A stretch of 64,000 nucleotides of DNA, from the NCBI GenBank assembly GCA_013166835.1, contig JABLTI010000003.1:1-64000 (forward strand), read 5' to 3'. Both the position numbers and the translations under genes were made by a program. This document shows, one piece after another, positions 26,046 through 59,211 of this stretch (position 1 is its first letter; each line of letters opens with the position of its first letter). The stretch comes from Promethearchaeati archaeon (GTDB taxonomy: Archaea > Asgardarchaeota > Heimdallarchaeia > JABLTI01). The notes beneath the pieces were generated by a model. It was not told where the DNA came from and searched no databases. It saw nothing but the letters and a program-made list of their open reading frames with translations.

Positions 26046-26804
26046 ATGAAAGAGATTTATGAGATGCAAGTAAAGCCAAGAGCTTTAGACATAACTGTAG
26101 ATGAAGAAGTGAGATTCACAGCAATAGTAGATTATTTACAATTAATTGCTTACGAACATGCGTATAATCTTGAATTGAGTTTCCAGCAGACTTTCAAAAA
26201 AAATTTGACTTGGTATTTGCTTAGAAATTATATTGAAATGCACAAATATCCAAAGTTAAATGATTTATTAACAGTCCGATCTTGGGTTGCTCACAGCGAG
26301 AGTGATATGTATTCCTTAAGGGATTTTCAAATTCTAGATGAATCAGGAAAGCTAGTCTGTAGTGCAACTACTAGTTGGATTTTGTATCATTTCATAAAAA
26401 AACGACCTGTCAGCTATATAGCTCATTTTTCTGATAGACCATTCCGACATGAGCGATCAGTTGTTTATGACTTTCCAAAATTAGAATTACCAGAAAAAAT
26501 TGATGAAAAAGTGGAATTGACAGTAAGACGATCAGATCTTGACCTCAATAAACATGTAAATAATAGGGTGTATCTAGAATGGGTTATTGAAAGCATGCCA
26601 AAGAAGTATATAGAGAAATATCGTATTTCTAAATTTGAAATCAGCTTCAAAGGACAAGCATTCCACAAAGACAAAGTTTTAGTGGAAACAGAAATTAAAA
26701 AACTGGCAAAAAAAGAAGATGGAATTGTAGCAATTAGCAAAATAAGTAAAATGAAAAAAGGAGAATTGTTAACTAAAGTGAAATCCTATTGGAAATCAAT
26801 TTAG
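26046..26804 (+). CDS. acyl-ACP thioesterase-like hotdog protein (FatA/FatB-type double hotdog)
   Basis: LTWYLLRNYIEMHKYPKLNDLLTVRSWV, SATTSWILYHFIKKRPV, RRSDLDLNKHVNNRVYLEWVIESMP. Confidence 0.85.
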   Translation: MKEIYEMQVKPRALDITVDEEVRFTAIVDYLQLIAYEHAYNLELSFQQTFKKNLTWYLLRNYIEMHKYPKLNDLLTVRSWVAHSESDMYSLRDFQILDESGKLVCSATTSWILYHFIKKRPVSYIAHFSDRPFRHERSVVYDFPKLELPEKIDEKVELTVRRSDLDLNKHVNNRVYLEWVIESMPKKYIEKYRISKFEISFKGQAFHKDKVLVETEIKKLAKKEDGIVAISKISKMKKGELLTKVKSYWKSI

Positions 26805-27391
26805 TTTTGCTTTTCGTGAAAAGCTTTTTCTCCGTATTCGAAAGCTCTTTTATTGGATTCGACAGTCTCTGGTGGAACCATATCCAAGATGGTATTTAGT
26901 AGAGTGTCTCGTTTTATCGGTAATTCTTCTGATGATGCTAAACTTCCAAGCATAACAACATTTGTCATAACTTGAGATCCTGCTTTAATTGCTAGTTTTG
27001 AGGCTTCTATCTCGACTAATTCTTGTGTCTCACTAAGTCTTGAAACAATTTCGTCTATTTCTGGGTAATTGGATAAGCCAAGATGGGCATCAACACCAAT
27101 GTATGGTTCATTGTTTAAGAGTACTTTCGCATTATCCTTCATTAATTTCATTTGTCTTAATGCTTCAAGTGGTTCAAAAGCAAGAAGAATGTCACCACTT
27201 CTTTGAGGCATGATAACGCCTTTAGCATCAGAACCAATTCGTAAGTAGGAGACAACAGTTCCACCTCGAATTGCTAAACCATGAGAAGCTCCAATTCTAA
27301 CATTAAAACCTTCTTTCATAGCAGCTTGAGCAAGAATTCTTGTAGTAAGAATGATGCCGTTTCCACCAACGCCACAAATTATTATATTCAT
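26801..27391 (-). CDS. iorB: indolepyruvate:ferredoxin oxidoreductase beta subunit
   Basis: MNIIICGVGGNGIILTTRILAQAAMKEGFNVRIGASHGLAIRGGTVVSYLRIG; coupled to iorA. Confidence 0.88.
   Translation of the reverse strand: MNIIICGVGGNGIILTTRILAQAAMKEGFNVRIGASHGLAIRGGTVVSYLRIGSDAKGVIMPQRSGDILLAFEPLEALRQMKLMKDNAKVLLNNEPYIGVDAHLGLSNYPEIDEIVSRLSETQELVEIEASKLAIKAGSQVMTNVVMLGSLASSEELPIKRDTLLNTILDMVPPETVESNKRAFEYGEKAFHEKQN
26809..26829 (+). terminator. hairpin plus T-run after the thioesterase gene, lying inside iorB
   Basis: GCTTTTC-GT-GAAAAGC then TTTTTC. Confidence 0.5.
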
Positions 27392-29349
27392 CTTCCAGCA
27401 ACCACCTGTTTTGTTTTTAAGGGAATTTGTTCTTCCCTTGGAATTGAAATAGCTTGCTTAGGACAGACTTGGACACAAAGTGCACAACCATTACAATTGG
27501 GTAATATTACTAGATGTTCATTTTCGCCACTTGATGACCAACCGAATGCAGGACAACCAAGTTTCTTCATACAGACCTTACAACCCGTGCAAATTTCTGC
27601 AGCTACTCTGGCTCTAGTTACTTTTTCTTTGGTAATTCGACGTTCTCTTCCAGCAAGAATGGCACATTCTCCACGAGAGATTATTACCTTGGGTCCTTCA
27701 TCTTCGATATGTCTAGTTATTGTATCTTGGAGAAGTTCGGTGTGAAATGATTCAACAACTTTGACATTCTCAATACCAAGACCGTTAACAATATTAGCCA
27801 AATCAACCTCAGGAGTCGGGTCACCCATTAAATTACGGCCTGTGCAAGCATTGGGTTGATGTCCTGTCATTCCGGTTATCGAATTATCAAAAATAATAAC
27901 AGTTATCTTTGATCTGTGCTGTACAGCATTCAAAAGTGATGGTATGCCTGAATGCAAGAATGTCCCATCTCCTATCACAGCTAAGATTGGTTCTTTCACC
28001 CCTGATTGGTACATACCAGAAGCCATAGCTATTGAAGCTCCCATACAAATACAGGTATCAATTCCTGCTATTGGTTCATGAACTCCTTGATTGTAACACC
28101 CTCTATCTCCCAGTATTACTCCACCTTTCTTGTTTTTTCTAAGGGCCTCCTTTATTGAGTAATAAGTTGCTCTATGAGGACATCCCGCGCATAGTGCTGG
28201 GACTCTCTTTGTGAGCATATCTTCTACTTCTAAGTATGGTTTAGTTAATTCCTCACTAAACTTAACTTTGAATAGCTTCTCAATTCCTCCCCCTACAAGA
28301 TCAGGATTCAATTCTCCAGTGCGAGGCATAGTCTGGTCTTCTTTTCCATGTATTATTACCTCTATACCTTCTCTTTGAGCAAAAGCTCTTATTTGCATTT
28401 CAGTTACCGGTTCACATTCTTCTACAATCAGAACTTTTTCAAGTCCTTTAAAGTAATCATTTAAGAGTTGTTTTGGTAGAGGATATGTGGTTGCTAATTT
28501 TAGCACTTTTGCACTGATTTTTGTTTTCTCTAATACTTCTTCTACATAAGGATAAGTTAGTCCAGAAGCAATAATACCAAATTCTGTTTTAAATGGATTA
28601 GTTTTTGTTGTTATTTCTCCTTTGTCTATTAAGATTACTTTATTCCAAGGATTTGATTCGTTAATCACTGCTGCTCTGTTAATTTTTTCAGATAATATGG
28701 GTTGCCTTGCTCGAGACAAAGTGGAAATCATCACATATCTCTTTGGATCTTTTTCGAAATGTCCTTCTCTTCTCGGAGGAGTAATTTCTCCAAATGTTAC
28801 ATCAAAATAAGAATGACAAATCCTTGAGGTTATTCTTACAAAAACTGGTAATTGAAGTTCCTCAGACAGTTCAAAAGCATATTTCGTCATATCTTTTGCC
28901 TCTTGACCATCCATTGGTTCAAGAACAGGGATTTTCCCTAACATTCCAAAATATCTTGTGTCTTCTGCATTTTGCGAAGAGTGTTGCCCGGGATCATCAG
29001 CAGTTACTACTACCAAACCACCATTGACTCCAGTTATGGCTATTACAAGCAAAGGATCAGCGATTAAATTCACCCCAAGCATCTTTGTAACCATGACTGA
29101 CCGAACACCTGCAAGTGCAGATCCTGCTGCAACTTCAAATGCAACAGCTTCATTAACTGAATGTTCTGCATGAAAACCTAATTGATGCGCAAGTGGTCCG
29201 AGATTATCAAGTATCTGAGTTGATGGTGTCCCAGGAAAAGCTGTTGTTATTCCTGCTCCTGCTTCTATAATTCCTCTTGCAATTGCTTCATTACCTGTTA
29301 ATAAAACTCTTTCACCTGCATCTCTTAGCAGGTTTTTATTGACTTTCAT
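27388..29349 (-). CDS. iorA: indolepyruvate:ferredoxin oxidoreductase alpha subunit
   Basis: EAGAGITTAFPGTPSTQILD, CAGCPHRATYYSIKEAL, GDGTFLHSGIPSLLNAV (ThDP), C-terminal CTGCKVCMKKLGCPAF / CNGCALCVQVCPKQAI. Confidence 0.93.
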   Translation of the reverse strand: MKVNKNLLRDAGERVLLTGNEAIARGIIEAGAGITTAFPGTPSTQILDNLGPLAHQLGFHAEHSVNEAVAFEVAAGSALAGVRSVMVTKMLGVNLIADPLLVIAITGVNGGLVVVTADDPGQHSSQNAEDTRYFGMLGKIPVLEPMDGQEAKDMTKYAFELSEELQLPVFVRITSRICHSYFDVTFGEITPPRREGHFEKDPKRYVMISTLSRARQPILSEKINRAAVINESNPWNKVILIDKGEITTKTNPFKTEFGIIASGLTYPYVEEVLEKTKISAKVLKLATTYPLPKQLLNDYFKGLEKVLIVEECEPVTEMQIRAFAQREGIEVIIHGKEDQTMPRTGELNPDLVGGGIEKLFKVKFSEELTKPYLEVEDMLTKRVPALCAGCPHRATYYSIKEALRKNKKGGVILGDRGCYNQGVHEPIAGIDTCICMGASIAMASGMYQSGVKEPILAVIGDGTFLHSGIPSLLNAVQHRSKITVIIFDNSITGMTGHQPNACTGRNLMGDPTPEVDLANIVNGLGIENVKVVESFHTELLQDTITRHIEDEGPKVIISRGECAILAGRERRITKEKVTRARVAAEICTGCKVCMKKLGCPAFGWSSSGENEHLVILPNCNGCALCVQVCPKQAISIPREEQIPLKTKQVVAGR

Positions 29350-29433: not shown

Positions 29434-29712
29434 TTATAGGTCAATTGCTAATGAAGAAATCCATCTTACCTTTTCCTTTCTATGCCATTTTTTAATTTCT
29501 TCAATTTTTACTTTGTAAAATCCACCTTTGAGTCCTAACCCAATTTTTTTGAGCAATGCTTCTTTTGTTATGAAAAGCAGTGTATGTAAAAGCTTTTCTG
29601 TTAAATCGTAGCTTTTCTTTGCTGCCTTTAATACGTTTTGACTTTTTCCCGTAAAAGGTTTCTTTAAAATGAAGATTTTCTTTGTGCAGTTTGCTAGAAA
29701 AACTAATTTCAT
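29434..29712 (-). CDS. 92-aa protein resembling the C-terminal half of a 4'-phosphopantetheinyl transferase
   Basis: FITKEALLKKIGLGLKGGFYKVKI resembles the PPTase WxxKEaxxKxxGxGL motif; overlaps the upstream stop as TAATG. Confidence 0.5.
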   Translation of the reverse strand: MKLVFLANCTKKIFILKKPFTGKSQNVLKAAKKSYDLTEKLLHTLLFITKEALLKKIGLGLKGGFYKVKIEEIKKWHRKEKVRWISSLAIDL

Positions 29713-30611
29713 TAAATATTTAAAATCTCTTTAGCAATTCTCATTGCACATCTTATTCCTTGACCTGAAGAAATAGATATTTGTCTTTCAATTTTATTTA
29801 CCAAATCGCCTATAAAATAAACTCGATTTTCTTTAACAAACTTGTCAAATTTCACTTCTGAGAGGATATGATTTTGATCTCGTCCAACTGCAACAAGAAT
29901 AAAATCTGCTACTATTTCCTCTTTACTCTTAGTCTTCACAATAGGGAGTATTTCTTCCTTTTCTTTTTTTGCAGAGAATTCTTTGATATCTTGATTTGCT
30001 TTAATTGTGATGAACTTGTTATCAGTAGCTCTTTGAACTAGTAAAGGTAAAGATTTGTAATCTTTTGTTCGAGTAATTATTGTAATATGATTCTCCCTAT
30101 TCGCTAGATTTATTGCATAATCAAATGCAGCATCGCCACTTCCAATAATGGCAATTTTCTTGTTAAAGAATAATTTCTCAAGCATTTTTGCAGGTTCATA
30201 GAATAACAACCCGTTTTCCCGTAATTCCTCTTCTCCTTTAAAATTCAGTCTTCTAGGCTTAGTTCCGGTTGCTATTACAAGATATTGACAATTATATTGA
30301 TTCTTTTTGGACTTGGCAATAAATTCATCTTGTGATTTATCAAAAGAAAGACTGATTATTTCATCTTTCACAGTTTCAATTTCTAAATACTTAAGATGTT
30401 CCTCGAGTGTATAACAAAATTCTACCCCAGAGATGCCTTTTGGAAAACCCAAATAATTCTCTATGAGATTTGCATTTCTTGCTAATCCACCAATCTTTTC
30501 CTTATCAATTAGAATAACATCTAGTCCATAGCGTTTCAATTGAACAGCAGCTGCGCATCCCGCTGGTCCTGCACCAATTACTGTTATCTGATTTTTCTTA
30601 TTTACCATCAT
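29712..30611 (-). CDS. NAD(P)/FAD-dependent oxidoreductase, thioredoxin-reductase-like, without redox CxxC
   Basis: ITVIGAGPAGCAAAVQLKRYG, GGLARNANLIENYLGFP, ATGTKPRRL, IAIIGSGDAAFDYAINLA, VYFIGDL; CxxC position reads LLFYEPAKML. ATG at 30611 with upstream GGAGAG preferred over 30659. Confidence 0.88.
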   Translation of the reverse strand: MMVNKKNQITVIGAGPAGCAAAVQLKRYGLDVILIDKEKIGGLARNANLIENYLGFPKGISGVEFCYTLEEHLKYLEIETVKDEIISLSFDKSQDEFIAKSKKNQYNCQYLVIATGTKPRRLNFKGEEELRENGLLFYEPAKMLEKLFFNKKIAIIGSGDAAFDYAINLANRENHITIITRTKDYKSLPLLVQRATDNKFITIKANQDIKEFSAKKEKEEILPIVKTKSKEEIVADFILVAVGRDQNHILSEVKFDKFVKENRVYFIGDLVNKIERQISISSGQGIRCAMRIAKEILNI

Positions 30612-31302
30612 TTTTTCTCTCCAGAAGTTCATTGCTGGTGACTGGTATTCCGAATCCATGACTAGCTGCTTTCAGAGTATTGAGATGAAGTTCTTCAGTA
30701 TAGGTTGCTAGGCAATCTATCGGTAAGAAGACTTCGAAGTCATAACAGAAAGCACTTCTAGCTGTCGTTTCACAACATAAATGAGTTGCTACACCGGCAA
30801 TTATTACTTGTTTACAATCACTTTCTATTAATAAATTCAACAAATTTGTATCTCTAAAGCAATCATAGGTACTTTTCTCAAGAACAACAGCATCTATTGT
30901 ATCAAATCTAGGATCTATTTTTGCTAATGGATCACTACTTTTCAAAGAATCTCCCCACCATTTATCCATAATGGATGTATCCTCAGAACTAGCTTTTAAT
31001 CCATATTTAGTGAAAACTACTAGTTTGTTATTCTCAGTGAAAAATTTTTGCAGTCTCTTTATTGGGTCAATAATCGCTTCAGAAGCTGGAAGATATGCAT
31101 GTGATTTTGGAGTGAGGAAAAACTCTTGCATATCAATAATTAGTAAAGCTGCTTTCTGAATGTCAAAATTAAATTCTCTTTTTGAGGAATAGAACTGCTC
31201 AAGAATTTCTTTCCATTCAGAGATTTTTCCTTTCCTATTTTCTTGGGTGAAATATTTTTCTTTTTTCACTACCCTCACCTTATATCTAGCATGATTCTTC
31301 AT
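30598..31302 (-). CDS. isochorismatase-like cysteine hydrolase
   Basis: AALLIIDMQEFFLTP, VLEKSTYDCFRDTNL, VIIAGVATHLCCETTARSAFCYDFEVFLPIDC. Confidence 0.9.
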   Translation of the reverse strand: MKNHARYKVRVVKKEKYFTQENRKGKISEWKEILEQFYSSKREFNFDIQKAALLIIDMQEFFLTPKSHAYLPASEAIIDPIKRLQKFFTENNKLVVFTKYGLKASSEDTSIMDKWWGDSLKSSDPLAKIDPRFDTIDAVVLEKSTYDCFRDTNLLNLLIESDCKQVIIAGVATHLCCETTARSAFCYDFEVFLPIDCLATYTEELHLNTLKAASHGFGIPVTSNELLERKNDGK

Positions 31303-32224
31303 ATTTCTGAAATTCTTCTATTGTGAATGTTCCATTTTCAAATTTCAATGCATGTTGACCACAATTACTGCCAATGTGGTTTTCCTCTAATTCTCCAATG
31401 CTTAGGAGTACATCAAATCCTTTATCTTGAATGGCTTTAATTTTCTGCTTAGCAAATTCCCCTGTTTCAGGAGAAATCATGGATTGAAGACTATGAGCTT
31501 TGGCTATTTCTGTTGGATTTATTGGAGTTATTTTAATGAAGAATTTCTTGGGATCATAGACTTCTAGGAGTCTATCTGGATCAAGTGGATTACCTTTTTC
31601 AGCAGCAAAATTCAAGGTAATCTTCCGATCACCTTTCTGCCAGAACGCTTCTCCATAAGCAGCAATTTCTTCTAATGTCCAGATTTTGTATGGAATAACT
31701 TTTTTCCGGACATCCTCTTCGGTTGAATGAATAGAAAATTGTAATTGGAAATGACCATTAGGATAAAGATCGTTTTTGATTTCTAACATCTCGTCCATGA
31801 ACTTGTTAGCATTACTCGGTGCAATTGTTGATATACAAGGCATTAATCCAGGAGCATTATATAACTCTGGGAGTTTTCTCATAACATCTAAAACATCAGG
31901 GTTGAGAGCTGGTTCACCCATTCGAGCAAATTGAATCTTAAATTTCTCAGCAGGGATTGTTCTATCAGGATAACGTTTGGAAACCATATAATCAATTTGC
32001 TTATACATAACATCGTAAGAAATTTTGCCATGATAATAGGTCCCAGCGTCGCACATAGAGCATTTGACCGGGCAACCATACATCGTTGAAAGAATCAAAA
32101 CCCACTTCATATCTCGAGGAACCGGTGGTTGAAGAGACTCAACAAATTCAATGAATTTGCCATCTTCTTGTGCAATATAGAGTATTGCTAAATCATCACG
32201 CCCATACTTTGCTACGATTTCCAA
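31286..32224 (-). CDS. RlmN/Cfr-like radical SAM protein lacking the N-terminal accessory domain
   Basis: YGCPVKCSMCDAG (CxxxCxxC), RMGEPALNPDVLD, FQLQFSIHSTEEDVRKKVIP, IKITPINPT, IGSNCGQHAL (RlmN-type C-terminal Cys region). Confidence 0.82.
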   Translation of the reverse strand: MEIVAKYGRDDLAILYIAQEDGKFIEFVESLQPPVPRDMKWVLILSTMYGCPVKCSMCDAGTYYHGKISYDVMYKQIDYMVSKRYPDRTIPAEKFKIQFARMGEPALNPDVLDVMRKLPELYNAPGLMPCISTIAPSNANKFMDEMLEIKNDLYPNGHFQLQFSIHSTEEDVRKKVIPYKIWTLEEIAAYGEAFWQKGDRKITLNFAAEKGNPLDPDRLLEVYDPKKFFIKITPINPTEIAKAHSLQSMISPETGEFAKQKIKAIQDKGFDVLLSIGELEENHIGSNCGQHALKFENGTFTIEEFQKYEESC

Positions 32225-33403: not shown

Positions 33404-33901
33404 TTATTTTTCAATTAACATGTTCTGACAGACAGGACAAGTCTTATGTTTCACAAGCCATTCTTCGAGATATTTCTTTATGAAATATGAGCTGCAAAAT
33501 GGGCATTGTAAAACCTCATCATCATCCTGTATTTCCGTTTTTGAAATCATACATTTCTCATTCTGAATTGGATAATCAACTTTTGAAGCAATAATTTTCG
33601 CATCACTAGATACTATATCATCCTCTTCCTCAATCGATAATCTTTGAGATCTACTAACAGGTTGTCTGGTTCTAGTAGGGGTTGTTTGTATTCTTGGTGG
33701 ACTTCTTTTCTTTTGTTTCTTGAAGTTTGATACAAAAAGTATTGTTCCAAAAATAAAGAACAATACTCCAAAAATAATGAAAAGATAATCAAAGCTTGAG
33801 CCTTCTACAAATCCATATCTGAACAAACCAAAACCAGCAAGTCCTAGACCTAATATAATTGCAATCCAAGATAAAATACCCTGATACCTCTTAGAAGACA
33901 T
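33404..33901 (-). CDS. two-TM membrane protein with C-terminal RING-like zinc domain (paralogue 1)
   Basis: CMISKTEIQDDDEVLQCPFCSSYFIKKYLEEWLVKHKTCPVCQNML. Confidence 0.7.
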   Translation of the reverse strand: MSSKRYQGILSWIAIILGLGLAGFGLFRYGFVEGSSFDYLFIIFGVLFFIFGTILFVSNFKKQKKRSPPRIQTTPTRTRQPVSRSQRLSIEEEDDIVSSDAKIIASKVDYPIQNEKCMISKTEIQDDDEVLQCPFCSSYFIKKYLEEWLVKHKTCPVCQNMLIEK

Positions 33902-33926: not shown

Positions 33927-34445
33927 TTAAATCTTCTTTATTTTTAGTTTTGCTTGACAAATTGGACATTTACTATTCTTGTTTAGCCACCCAAGTAGAT
34001 ATTTGCTTAGATAATAGTTTTCACAATTGGGACATTGTAAAGCGGATTCATCTTTTCCAATTAGTGTTTTAGATATCATACAAATTATATTTTCTTGTTT
34101 TTCACTAGCTAAAATATATTTAAGTTCATATTCACTAGATTTTTCCTTCTCAAATTGCGCTAAATCAATAACACTTGCTTCGTCAACCATTCTCTCGATT
34201 TCTATATCAGATAATCTCATATCTACTCGAGATCTTGCCAAGATAATCTTTTTATGATCTCTTCTATTAACAGAAAAACCAACAAGACCGACTATAAAAA
34301 AGAAAAATCCGATGCTTAATACAGTAAAAAATTCACTCAATATATCTACAATTGTGAGTAATCCGAAGCTTCCTAGTATAGCTAACACTCCTAATACCAT
34401 TAGGAAAATGAAAAGAATTCTTCTTGCTCTAAACTTCTCTTCCAT
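33927..34445 (-). CDS. two-TM membrane protein with C-terminal RING-like zinc domain (paralogue 2)
   Basis: CMISKTLIGKDESALQCPNCENYYLSKYLLGWLNKNSKCPICQAKL; same architecture as the neighbour. Confidence 0.7.
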   Translation of the reverse strand: MEEKFRARRILFIFLMVLGVLAILGSFGLLTIVDILSEFFTVLSIGFFFFIVGLVGFSVNRRDHKKIILARSRVDMRLSDIEIERMVDEASVIDLAQFEKEKSSEYELKYILASEKQENIICMISKTLIGKDESALQCPNCENYYLSKYLLGWLNKNSKCPICQAKLKIKKI

Positions 34446-56032: not shown

Positions 56033-58396
56033 TCAATAACCATGTTCAGTTCTCTTTATGATTTCATCTTGGAGTTTAGGACCTAAATTGATATAGTAAT
56101 CACTGTAGCCAGCAACTCTCACTATTAGATCTCTATATTTCTCCGGATTCTTTTGAGCTTCTCTCAAAGTATCAGCTGATACAACATTGAATTGAATGTG
56201 ATGACCACCTAGCTTGAAGTATCCTCGAACTAGATGGGTAATATTTTCAATACCTTCATCTGTAGCAAAGAAACTAGGAGTAAATTTTTGATTTAGCAAT
56301 GTACCTCCAGTTCTTACATGGTCTATTTTACTTGCAGATTTCAAAACAGCAGTTGGTCCTTTGGTATCTGAACCTTGAACTGGGGAAATACCTTCTGAGA
56401 GTGGTTCAAATGCTTTTCTTCCATCAGGCATTGCGCCAATAACACTTCCAAAATAAACATGAACTGTTGTAGGAAGAAGATTTATTCTATGTTGACCACC
56501 TTTTGTGTTTGGTCTGCCATCTACAGCATTAAAGTATAATTCAAATACATCCATCGTTATTGCATCTGGATAATCCTCATCATTTCCATATTTAGGAGTA
56601 TCACAAATGAATCTCTGACGAAGCTCCTCTTTATCTTTAAAGTTAGTTGTTAATATCTCGAGTAATTCTTTCATTGTTAGATTTTTTTCATCAAAAATGT
56701 TGTACTTTATTGATGTCAATGAATCAGTAATACTCCCTAGACCTACTCCTTGAATATAGGATGAGTTGTATCTAGCTCCACCAGCATTGTAATCCTTAGC
56801 ATTTTTGATGCAATCATCAATAATTATTGATAAGAATGGTGATGGCAAATAATTGCCCCATAATTTTTCAATTATGTTGTTTCCCTTGATTTTAATATCA
56901 ACGAAATGCTGAACTTGTTTACTAAAAGCCTTAAACAGTTCATCGTAGGTTTTGAATTGTGTAGTATCACCTGTTCTCAAACCTATTTGTTTCTTAGTTT
57001 TTGTATCAAGACCATTATGTAAAGTTACTTCTAAGATTTTTACTAAATTGAAATATCCTGTCAAGCTATAATTTTCTTTACCAAATGCTCCGGTTTCCAC
57101 ACACCCGCTAGTACCACCATTTCTAGCATCTTCAATAGATTTTCCAACTCGCAACATTTCCTGAATTATGATATCAGTATTGAAAATAGATGGTTGTCCA
57201 AAACCAGTTTTAATAATCTTTAAAGCTCTTTTTAAGAAGTCATCTGGGGTGATTTTGCTTATTTGTACCATTGAACTTGGTTGTAAAATTCTCATTTCTT
57301 CTATAACATCAAGGATTAGGTATGATAACTCATTGACCCCATCTGTTCCATCTTCTTTTAATCCCCCAAGATTGATCAAACAAAAATCGGTATAAGTATT
57401 GCTTTCTTCTGCTGTAACTCCAACTTTCGGTGGAGCAGGTTGATTATTAAATTTAATCCAAAATGCTTCCAGAAGTTCTTTTGCTCCTTCTTTTGTTAAT
57501 GTTCCTTCAGCAATTTCCTTCTTGTAAAAAGGATAAAGATGTTGATCTAGTCTCCCTGGATTAAATGAATCCCAGGTATTAAGTTCAGTAATTACTCCTA
57601 AATGAATAAACCAGTAGTGCTGTAATGCTTCTCTAAATGTACGTGGGGCATTTTCTGGAACGTTTTTGCATGTTTCAGCAATTAATTCAAGCTCTTTCTT
57701 ACGTTTAGGATCCTTTTCTTTTTTAGCCAACTCTTCCGCTTTCTCAGCATGCCGTTCTGCAAAACTCATAATTGCCGTTGCTGCGATTTCCATTGCTCTA
57801 AGTTCATCACGTTTATCTAATGATTCGGGATCATTATCATAATCTATGCTTTCAAAACTCTGTTGAATGTCAGCCATATAATCAGAAAAACCATTCACGA
57901 ATATTTTACCATCTGAAACAGTATGTCCAGGAGCTCGTTGCTCCATAAACTCAGTAAAAACACCTGCTTCGTAAGCATCTATCCATAGATAGTCAACCTC
58001 AGAGAAAATTCGATCACGTATTGATCTCCCCTTCCAGAAAGGAATAATCTCCTCTTCTGATAGCTTTCTTGTTTCATCACTTACTTTAAATGATATTTTC
58101 TCTCGAGAATCTAAAATATCTAAATCTTTCAAGGAGTGGCAACAAATTTCTGGATAAGTAGAAGTAGCTTTAGGAGCTGAACCACGTTCTCCTACAATTA
58201 GCTCATTATCATTAATGCAAATTTCTTTGTTTTCTAATAAATACTTGAATGCTAAGGCTCTGGCAACAGGAATAGATACTTTTTCTGTGACTCCACTTTT
58301 ATAAAAATCTGTGAGTAATTTTGCTCTTTCAATAGAAAGTGTAGGTATTGTATTTCTACTCTGATCTCGAAGTTTCTTAATCCTGTCAAGCATCAT
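56033..58396 (-). CDS. glycyl radical enzyme, dehydratase class (possibly trans-4-hydroxy-L-proline dehydratase-like)
   Basis: GGTSGCVETGAFGKE (GCVE active-site loop), C-terminal IVRVAGYSDYYINL glycyl loop; followed by activase gene. Confidence 0.92.
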   Translation of the reverse strand: MMLDRIKKLRDQSRNTIPTLSIERAKLLTDFYKSGVTEKVSIPVARALAFKYLLENKEICINDNELIVGERGSAPKATSTYPEICCHSLKDLDILDSREKISFKVSDETRKLSEEEIIPFWKGRSIRDRIFSEVDYLWIDAYEAGVFTEFMEQRAPGHTVSDGKIFVNGFSDYMADIQQSFESIDYDNDPESLDKRDELRAMEIAATAIMSFAERHAEKAEELAKKEKDPKRKKELELIAETCKNVPENAPRTFREALQHYWFIHLGVITELNTWDSFNPGRLDQHLYPFYKKEIAEGTLTKEGAKELLEAFWIKFNNQPAPPKVGVTAEESNTYTDFCLINLGGLKEDGTDGVNELSYLILDVIEEMRILQPSSMVQISKITPDDFLKRALKIIKTGFGQPSIFNTDIIIQEMLRVGKSIEDARNGGTSGCVETGAFGKENYSLTGYFNLVKILEVTLHNGLDTKTKKQIGLRTGDTTQFKTYDELFKAFSKQVQHFVDIKIKGNNIIEKLWGNYLPSPFLSIIIDDCIKNAKDYNAGGARYNSSYIQGVGLGSITDSLTSIKYNIFDEKNLTMKELLEILTTNFKDKEELRQRFICDTPKYGNDEDYPDAITMDVFELYFNAVDGRPNTKGGQHRINLLPTTVHVYFGSVIGAMPDGRKAFEPLSEGISPVQGSDTKGPTAVLKSASKIDHVRTGGTLLNQKFTPSFFATDEGIENITHLVRGYFKLGGHHIQFNVVSADTLREAQKNPEKYRDLIVRVAGYSDYYINLGPKLQDEIIKRTEHGY

Positions 58397-59211
58397 TATT
58401 CCTCTAATTTAACCAATAAACCATACTTCTCGAGTTTTTCTTTGATTGCTATCATGTGTTCTTTTGTTGGTTTTGAAATATCTTTCATTCGGTTTATTTT
58501 GTTTAGTTTCCGATATTTATCCTCACCAATCTTGTGAAAAGGTAATAGTTCAACTCTAATAATCTCTAATTGTGACAAGAATTCCCCAAATTGTTTGATA
58601 TCTTCTAAGCTATCATTAACAGTTGGAATTATTGGAATTCTAATTATAACTTTCTGTCCTGCTTTAGTTAACATTTCAAGATTTTGTTTTATTATAGTAT
58701 TTGACTTTCCAGTGTATTTACTATGTTTTTCCTCATCAACAATTTTCAAGTCATAAAGAAAAAGATCTACTAATTTAGCTATTTCTTTCACAACATCTAA
58801 TGAAGCACAACCAGAGGTGTCAAGTGTTGTATGCAGACCTAGTTCTTTTGATTTCTTTAATAATAACAACAAGAACTTTGATTGTAAGAGCGGTTCTCCC
58901 CCTGAAAAAGTAACTCCACCACTAGAAATTTCATAAAAGACTTGGTCTTTCATAATTACCTGTATTATTTCATCAAGGGAAATTTCTTTCCCAATCAATT
59001 CTTTTCTTTCAAAGCAAGCTTTAGAAGAGGACCCAGTGAAGACTTGTCTTGTTATTGTTTCCGGTTCTGTTGAATGACTTTCTGGGTTGTGGCACCACCA
59101 ACAATCCATAGGGCAACCTTTGAAAAAAATGGTCGTGCGTATACCTGGACCATCATGAACGGCAAATTTTTTTATATCAAAGATAACTCCTTTAGGTTCC
59201 ATATTCTTCAA
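58396..59211 (-). CDS. glycyl-radical enzyme activating protein (radical SAM)
   Basis: HDGPGIRTTIFFKGCPMDCWWCHNPES, GVTFSGGEPLLQ; 1-nt overlap with the GRE gene. Confidence 0.95.
   Translation of the reverse strand: MKNMEPKGVIFDIKKFAVHDGPGIRTTIFFKGCPMDCWWCHNPESHSTEPETITRQVFTGSSSKACFERKELIGKEISLDEIIQVIMKDQVFYEISSGGVTFSGGEPLLQSKFLLLLLKKSKELGLHTTLDTSGCASLDVVKEIAKLVDLFLYDLKIVDEEKHSKYTGKSNTIIKQNLEMLTKAGQKVIIRIPIIPTVNDSLEDIKQFGEFLSQLEIIRVELLPFHKIGEDKYRKLNKINRMKDISKPTKEHMIAIKEKLEKYGLLVKLEE

Follow-up and report, generated by a model that had tools for sequence, protein, structure and literature searches.

A co-inherited operon encoding an RlmN/Cfr-like radical SAM protein, a cysteine hydrolase and a CxxC-less flavoprotein in Asgard archaea, a candidate small-molecule or cofactor pathway

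The window, by which we mean the whole 64,000-nt stretch of DNA analysed in this study, was confirmed to contain four minus-strand ORFs at 29434–29712, 29712–30659, 30598–31302 and 31286–32224, as described in the initial annotation. In the order of the minus strand, a radical SAM protein with an RlmN/Cfr-like fold (rSAM; 31286–32224, 312 aa, TTG start) is followed by an isochorismatase-fold cysteine hydrolase (ISO; 30598–31269) and by a TrxR-like FAD-binding flavoprotein (29712–30611). The fourth ORF (29434–29712, 92 aa, designated "half-PPTase") is a decayed remnant outside the functional unit. The overlap of 11–14 nt noted between the ISO and flavoprotein genes proved to be real; the flavoprotein, whose ORF is open to 30659, has an ATG at 30611 or 30608 (ATGATG) standing behind GGAGAG, and an overlap of 8–11 nt is kept in its relatives. 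The 17-nt overlap described between the rSAM and ISO genes, on the other hand, is probably an artefact of start-codon choice, because the conserved ISO protein starts not at the open end of its ORF (31302) but at the likely start codon GTG 31269, where homology with the relatives begins. This GTG stands behind AAGGTGAGG and leaves a gap of 16 nt to the rSAM gene; a short gap at this junction was also seen in the relatives.

Several other features of the window were recorded. Genes for the alpha and beta subunits of an indolepyruvate ferredoxin oxidoreductase (IOR; 26801–29349, minus strand) lie directly downstream of the three genes in the window and in its two closest relatives (G002 and G006), and were not found at that site in the remaining genus members that were examined. 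Two tandem genes at 33404–33901 and 33927–34445 (minus) encode small proteins whose N-termini are predicted to be hydrophobic and which end in a RING-like zinc motif (zf-RING_2-like, below the cut-off). At 56033–59211 (minus) there is a pair of overlapping genes which, from their sequence and general knowledge, we take to be a likely glycyl-radical enzyme (787 aa) and a radical-SAM activating-enzyme-like protein (271 aa).

The 92-aa ORF was rejected as a working PPTase gene on account of a sub-threshold Pfam match, a broken frame in relatives and the lack of a coding signature. Its match to the Pfam ACPS family was partial and scored 18.0 bits against a curated cut-off of 25. In G002 and G006 the corresponding DNA carries 1-nt indels and in-frame stops, and the genes next to it show no frame-breaking gaps between the window and the same two genomes. 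Substitutions in this ORF were spread evenly over the three codon positions (15/9/11 and 16/23/21 for the window versus G002 and G006), whereas the real genes displayed a pronounced third-position bias against relatives (rSAM, 17/9/104; flavoprotein, 23/14/70; IOR alpha, 20/13/125). Outside G002 and G006 no counterpart turned up at this site: in the two genomes of the genus whose copies come next in similarity (loci L031 and L033), a formamidase-family gene instead follows the flavoprotein gene within 3–33 nt. The ORF did not match an intact ACPS protein of the same genome either. The initial annotation had envisaged a four-gene pathway, possibly linked to carrier proteins through the PPTase. 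As this ORF has decayed, the carrier-protein link fails; the weak ACPS-like match speaks for such a pathway, but the frameshifts, the absence of coding selection and the presence of intact ACPS-domain proteins at other places of the genome, including one that forms part of a megasynthase, make it hardly credible.

The megasynthase of the window's genome (G000:C123; L200:951-11750, minus) is a protein of ~3,600 aa, type I FAS/PKS-like, comprising NMO-like (N-terminal), KS, AT, ACP, KR and its own C-terminal PPTase domains, with PS-DH in the G007 copy. PPTase matches within open frames of about 3,574–3,612 aa were also obtained in five further genomes of this genus; the genomes noted for this protein besides G000 are G001, G004, G005, G006, G007 and G008.

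To place the other three genes in context, their presence was counted in 228 genomes of the Asgard phylum on the basis of strong homologues only; the profile search covered this phylum, so the counts do not imply a restriction to Asgard archaea, and the MAGs in this set are incomplete. Strong homologues of rSAM, ISO and the flavoprotein were each detected in 35 genomes, the edge of the rSAM family being marked by a fall in score from 460 to 87 bits. All three occurred together in 34 of the 228 genomes and any one of them in 36, and both incomplete sets were explained by contig ends, as the contig of G024 starts inside the rSAM gene and that of G020 ends inside the flavoprotein gene. ISO and the flavoprotein were adjacent in 35 of 35 cases, and rSAM lay beside this pair in 31 of 34 genomes, being located elsewhere in G047, G030 and G101. 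The genes are arranged as rSAM-ISO-TrxR in the window's family (f1) and f19, and as ISO-TrxR-rSAM in f4, f5 and f18, so that adjacency of the trio extends over five families and two or more classes; its presence is patchy within genera. A scan of genome contigs with a single-protein query returned matches in Heimdallarchaeota only. The expectation that the cluster would be preserved in related genomes was hence borne out in part: rSAM, ISO and the flavoprotein, linked across families with near-perfect co-occurrence, stay neighbours in two orders, whereas the 92-aa ORF, frameshifted in relatives, drops out. The three genes constitute a conserved unit whose linkage goes beyond chance, in keeping with the dedicated pathway of coupled genes proposed at the outset.

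The three protein trees share the same main split, {f1, f19} versus {f4, f18}, which tracks the gene order, with f5 unstable on a long branch. Since f18 and f19 come from classes other than the one that comprises f1, f4 and f5, this split runs across the class boundary, and holding f1, f4 and f5 together was rejected by the AU test for every protein (p = 0.0005 for ISO, 0.0001 for rSAM and 0.010 for the flavoprotein). Given this agreement among the trees and their rejection of the class boundary, the most economical account is that each form of the operon was probably moved between classes whole; ancient duplicated operons with differential loss would be the alternative. The trio might also be a customary grouping of metabolic genes whose functions are separate, and the location of rSAM elsewhere in three genomes could be cited for this. 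With the near-perfect co-occurrence, the two independent gene orders and the joint transfer of the three genes set against it, this explanation is decidedly improbable, and we consider it very likely that the three genes act in one pathway.

The surroundings of the trio differ among families. In f4, the gene ahead of ISO throughout genus g4 encodes a class I methyltransferase that resembles PDB 8vyd. It was rejected as a fourth member and is a local addition, because it is widespread in Asgard genomes devoid of the trio and the remaining trio families lack it. In part of f4, flavodoxin-like and FMN-reductase-like genes also lie near the trio. In two genomes of f18, a 570-aa Peptidase_C13 (legumain-type) protein is encoded between the flavoprotein and rSAM (L091:1109-2821 and L092:9254-10966), the domain scan having been made on the L091 copy. 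A role in anti-phage defence was rejected, as PADLOC gave no match.

The assignment of rSAM as an RlmN/Cfr-like protein was upheld by both profile and fold searches. Its PDB profile matches included Cfr (9p0p, E = 1e-8) and RlmN (6fz6, 1.2e-5), and the top Foldseek matches of its predicted model (pLDDT 85) were all RlmN, with TM scores up to 0.67. As in RlmN and Cfr, a partial TIM-barrel radical SAM fold is accompanied by the CxxxCxxC, GEP and SxH motifs and by a Cys residue equivalent to that of RlmN Cys355-Gly and to Cfr Cys338. In the sequence of rSAM, these elements appear as a GCPxxCxMCDAG cluster motif with invariant cysteines C51, C55 and C58, as FARMGEP (ARMGEP in place of the GMGEP of RlmN/Cfr), and as an invariant C-terminal NCGQ that contains Cys288. 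When Asgard rSAMs were aligned together with a bacterial RlmN and the phage relatives, conservation throughout was seen for the cluster cysteines, for GEP and for the C-terminal Cys-Gly; Cys288, which aligns with RlmN Cys355 (CGQ), was invariant in 31 of 31 Asgard rSAMs and present in 63 of 64 phage relatives. In contrast, the resolving Cys (RlmN Cys118, Cfr Cys105) is missing: its position is taken by Ile or Val in all Asgard rSAMs (Ile44 in the window) and by Thr or Ala in the phage proteins, and by Cys in the bacterial RlmN. The N-terminal HhH-type/RNA-binding domain is absent as well, only about 40 residues preceding the barrel, and the PDB matches begin at chain residue 88 or later. The operon partners of rSAM are likewise not seen with RlmN. 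In addition, rSAM was rejected as an RlmN orthologue, as the window copy scored about 20 bits against the TIGR00048 cut-off of 290, and no match above this cut-off was obtained in the 54 genomes searched (the window's own and relatives). Because the resolving Cys and the N-terminal domain are missing, rSAM is, judged by its sequence, not RlmN/Cfr, and the suggestion that it methylates RNA adenosines, which for RlmN/Cfr are A2503 of 23S rRNA or A37 of tRNA, does not follow from the likeness.

The nearest relatives of rSAM found outside the Asgard archaea were phage proteins of PHROG 24834. They share 29–36% identity over most of the length, together with ARMGEP, KWxxxxST and the C-terminal CG, and also lack Cys118, but differ in having TCGN where the Asgard proteins have NCGQ and CD(V/C)P instead of CDAG after the cluster. 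Members of PHROG 24834 came from many contigs of IMG/VR as well as from Bacteroides phage Versailles (viral loci L109–L188). Neither a hydrolase nor a flavoprotein neighbour accompanied the phage rSAMs in 79 viral loci, and no conserved, informative neighbour emerged among these loci, which showed early phage genes and, in a few cases, genes of NAD/SAM metabolism.

RlmN bears the methyl group on Cys355 and cannot resolve the protein-RNA crosslink without Cys118, which probably serves as a general base; in the absence of Cys118, turnover is abolished and the crosslink is trapped (PMC9692996). Cys288 of rSAM could, at even odds, be a methyl carrier of this kind, and as far as the radical addition the enzyme may follow the class A mechanism. 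Since loss of Cys118 abolishes RlmN turnover, however, RlmN-type methyl transfer may not operate in rSAM at all.

The main rival to a small-molecule substrate is RNA: rSAM would be a divergent archaeal RlmN-like enzyme acting on a tRNA or rRNA base, and its partners would complete or trim a hypermodified nucleoside. The closest solved relatives of rSAM are all RNA methylases, and relatives are present in phages, which often carry RNA-modifying enzymes. The methyltransferase beside the trio in f4 could also point to nucleic acid instead, as its PDB relative 8vyd is named 'UPF0020 family', which we take to be a label used for RNA methyltransferases. That gene, however, is a local addition found in many Asgard genomes lacking the trio, as described above, and rSAM is devoid of both the RNA-binding domain and the Cys118 of RlmN/Cfr. 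Moreover, no RNA-binding domain was found in rSAM, ISO or the flavoprotein, and the patchy presence of the trio within genera would be unusual for a core RNA modification. On balance, the substrate of the trio is probably not RNA, and this specific RNA-based scheme is rather unlikely, though more credible than the other rivals considered here.

ISO matched the isochorismatase family (PF00857, 7.9e-34), and its best profile match was EntB (9.5e-37). It shares with EntB and PhzD the isochorismatase fold and the conserved Asp and Lys, and differs from EntB by an N-terminal extension, by its operon context and by a Cys predicted to be nucleophilic (GVxTHLCCETT). Asp57, Lys143 and Cys176 (numbering of the 234-aa ORF) were invariant in 21 ISO sequences; Cys176 stands where EntB has Gly, which ruled out ISO as an isochorismatase proper, and the CCETT motif is the same as that of the cysteine hydrolase 3irv. 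The initial annotation as an isochorismatase-like hydrolase was therefore right as to the fold, while the Asp-Lys-Cys triad marks the type as a cysteine hydrolase (amidase), seemingly nearer in mechanism to 3irv, RutB and BiuH than to EntB. Isochorismatases such as EntB and PhzD hydrolyse a vinyl ether through Asp/Lys with no nucleophilic Cys; because ISO has the Cys triad, it more probably acts on amide or carbamoyl bonds than on isochorismate. An amide theme is also met in the window's genus, where a formamidase-family gene directly follows the flavoprotein gene in two genomes.

The flavoprotein belongs to the Pyr_redox_2/TrxR-like proteins and retains both the FAD and the NAD Rossmann motifs. 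It resembles low-Mr TrxR in its FAD and NAD(P) domains, its GD...RQ FAD motif and, in model comparisons, its predicted fold (TM up to about 0.8), but lacks the redox CxxC of the NADPH domain. The predicted absence of CxxC was confirmed in 22 of 22 aligned members, so that a function as thioredoxin reductase was rejected. Glu stands at the position of the first catalytic Cys of TrxR, and Tyr154 is invariant and Glu155 nearly so. TrxR-like FNRs also lack the CxxC, although the sequence of the flavoprotein is nearer to TrxR (2.6e-28) than to FNR (best 4e-10). Such CxxC-less FNRs use NAD(P)H to reduce ferredoxin or flavodoxin (PMC10294844), and by analogy electron transfer to the rSAM system is plausible for the flavoprotein.

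The combination of enzyme classes raises a further possibility, namely a pathway for a peptide-derived cofactor or RiPP of the mycofactocin type, which would start from a small precursor peptide. Mycofactocin MftC, MftD and MftE are likewise a radical SAM enzyme, a flavoenzyme and an amide hydrolase. Nevertheless, rSAM has neither a SPASM domain nor a recognition-element partner, and around the trio no small ORF proved to be conserved from family to family, the conserved ones lying antisense to adjacent genes or being confined to a single subclade; we regard such a pathway as improbable. A literature search retrieved no published description of a radical SAM enzyme, hydrolase and flavoprotein combined in this way.

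Taken together, we favour the reading that the trio is a co-inherited three-enzyme operon for one small-molecule or cofactor metabolic pathway in Asgard archaea, to which we assign a probability of roughly 0.5. In this pathway, rSAM would use SAM twice by analogy with RlmN, Cys288 being methylated first, after which a 5'-deoxyadenosyl radical would turn methyl-Cys288 into a thiomethylene radical by which a one-carbon unit is attached to a substrate sp2 carbon. Because the Cys118-type general base is missing, release of the adduct would need another residue or a partner. The flavoprotein would oxidise NAD(P)H and either feed electrons to rSAM, at its cluster or a cysteinyl radical, or reduce the product, and would not serve as a disulfide reductase, while the Cys-triad hydrolase would cut an amide or carbamoyl bond in either the substrate or the product. 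ISO and the flavoprotein would operate as a tight pair, with rSAM adding the radical step. Against the small-molecule reading stand the low model confidence of the Cys288 loop (pLDDT about 55) and the separation of rSAM from the pair in three genomes.

More broadly, we tentatively propose that the rSAM clade common to Asgard archaea and phages kept the methyl-carrying Cys of RlmN/Cfr and dropped the resolving Cys, and that its Asgard members work with a flavoprotein and an amidohydrolase of their own in a pathway not yet described. If true, this would imply a new modified metabolite or cofactor, as well as a new means of releasing, or retaining, a cysteine-CH2-substrate adduct. Because it keeps just one catalytic cysteine of the class A pair, rSAM would allow one to probe whether the two-cysteine mechanism is the only solution, and work on it would give the first functional handle on the abundant and unstudied PHROG 24834. 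The movement of the operon between classes as a unit suggests a self-contained function, and the trio represents a compact, testable pathway in the archaea closest to eukaryotes.
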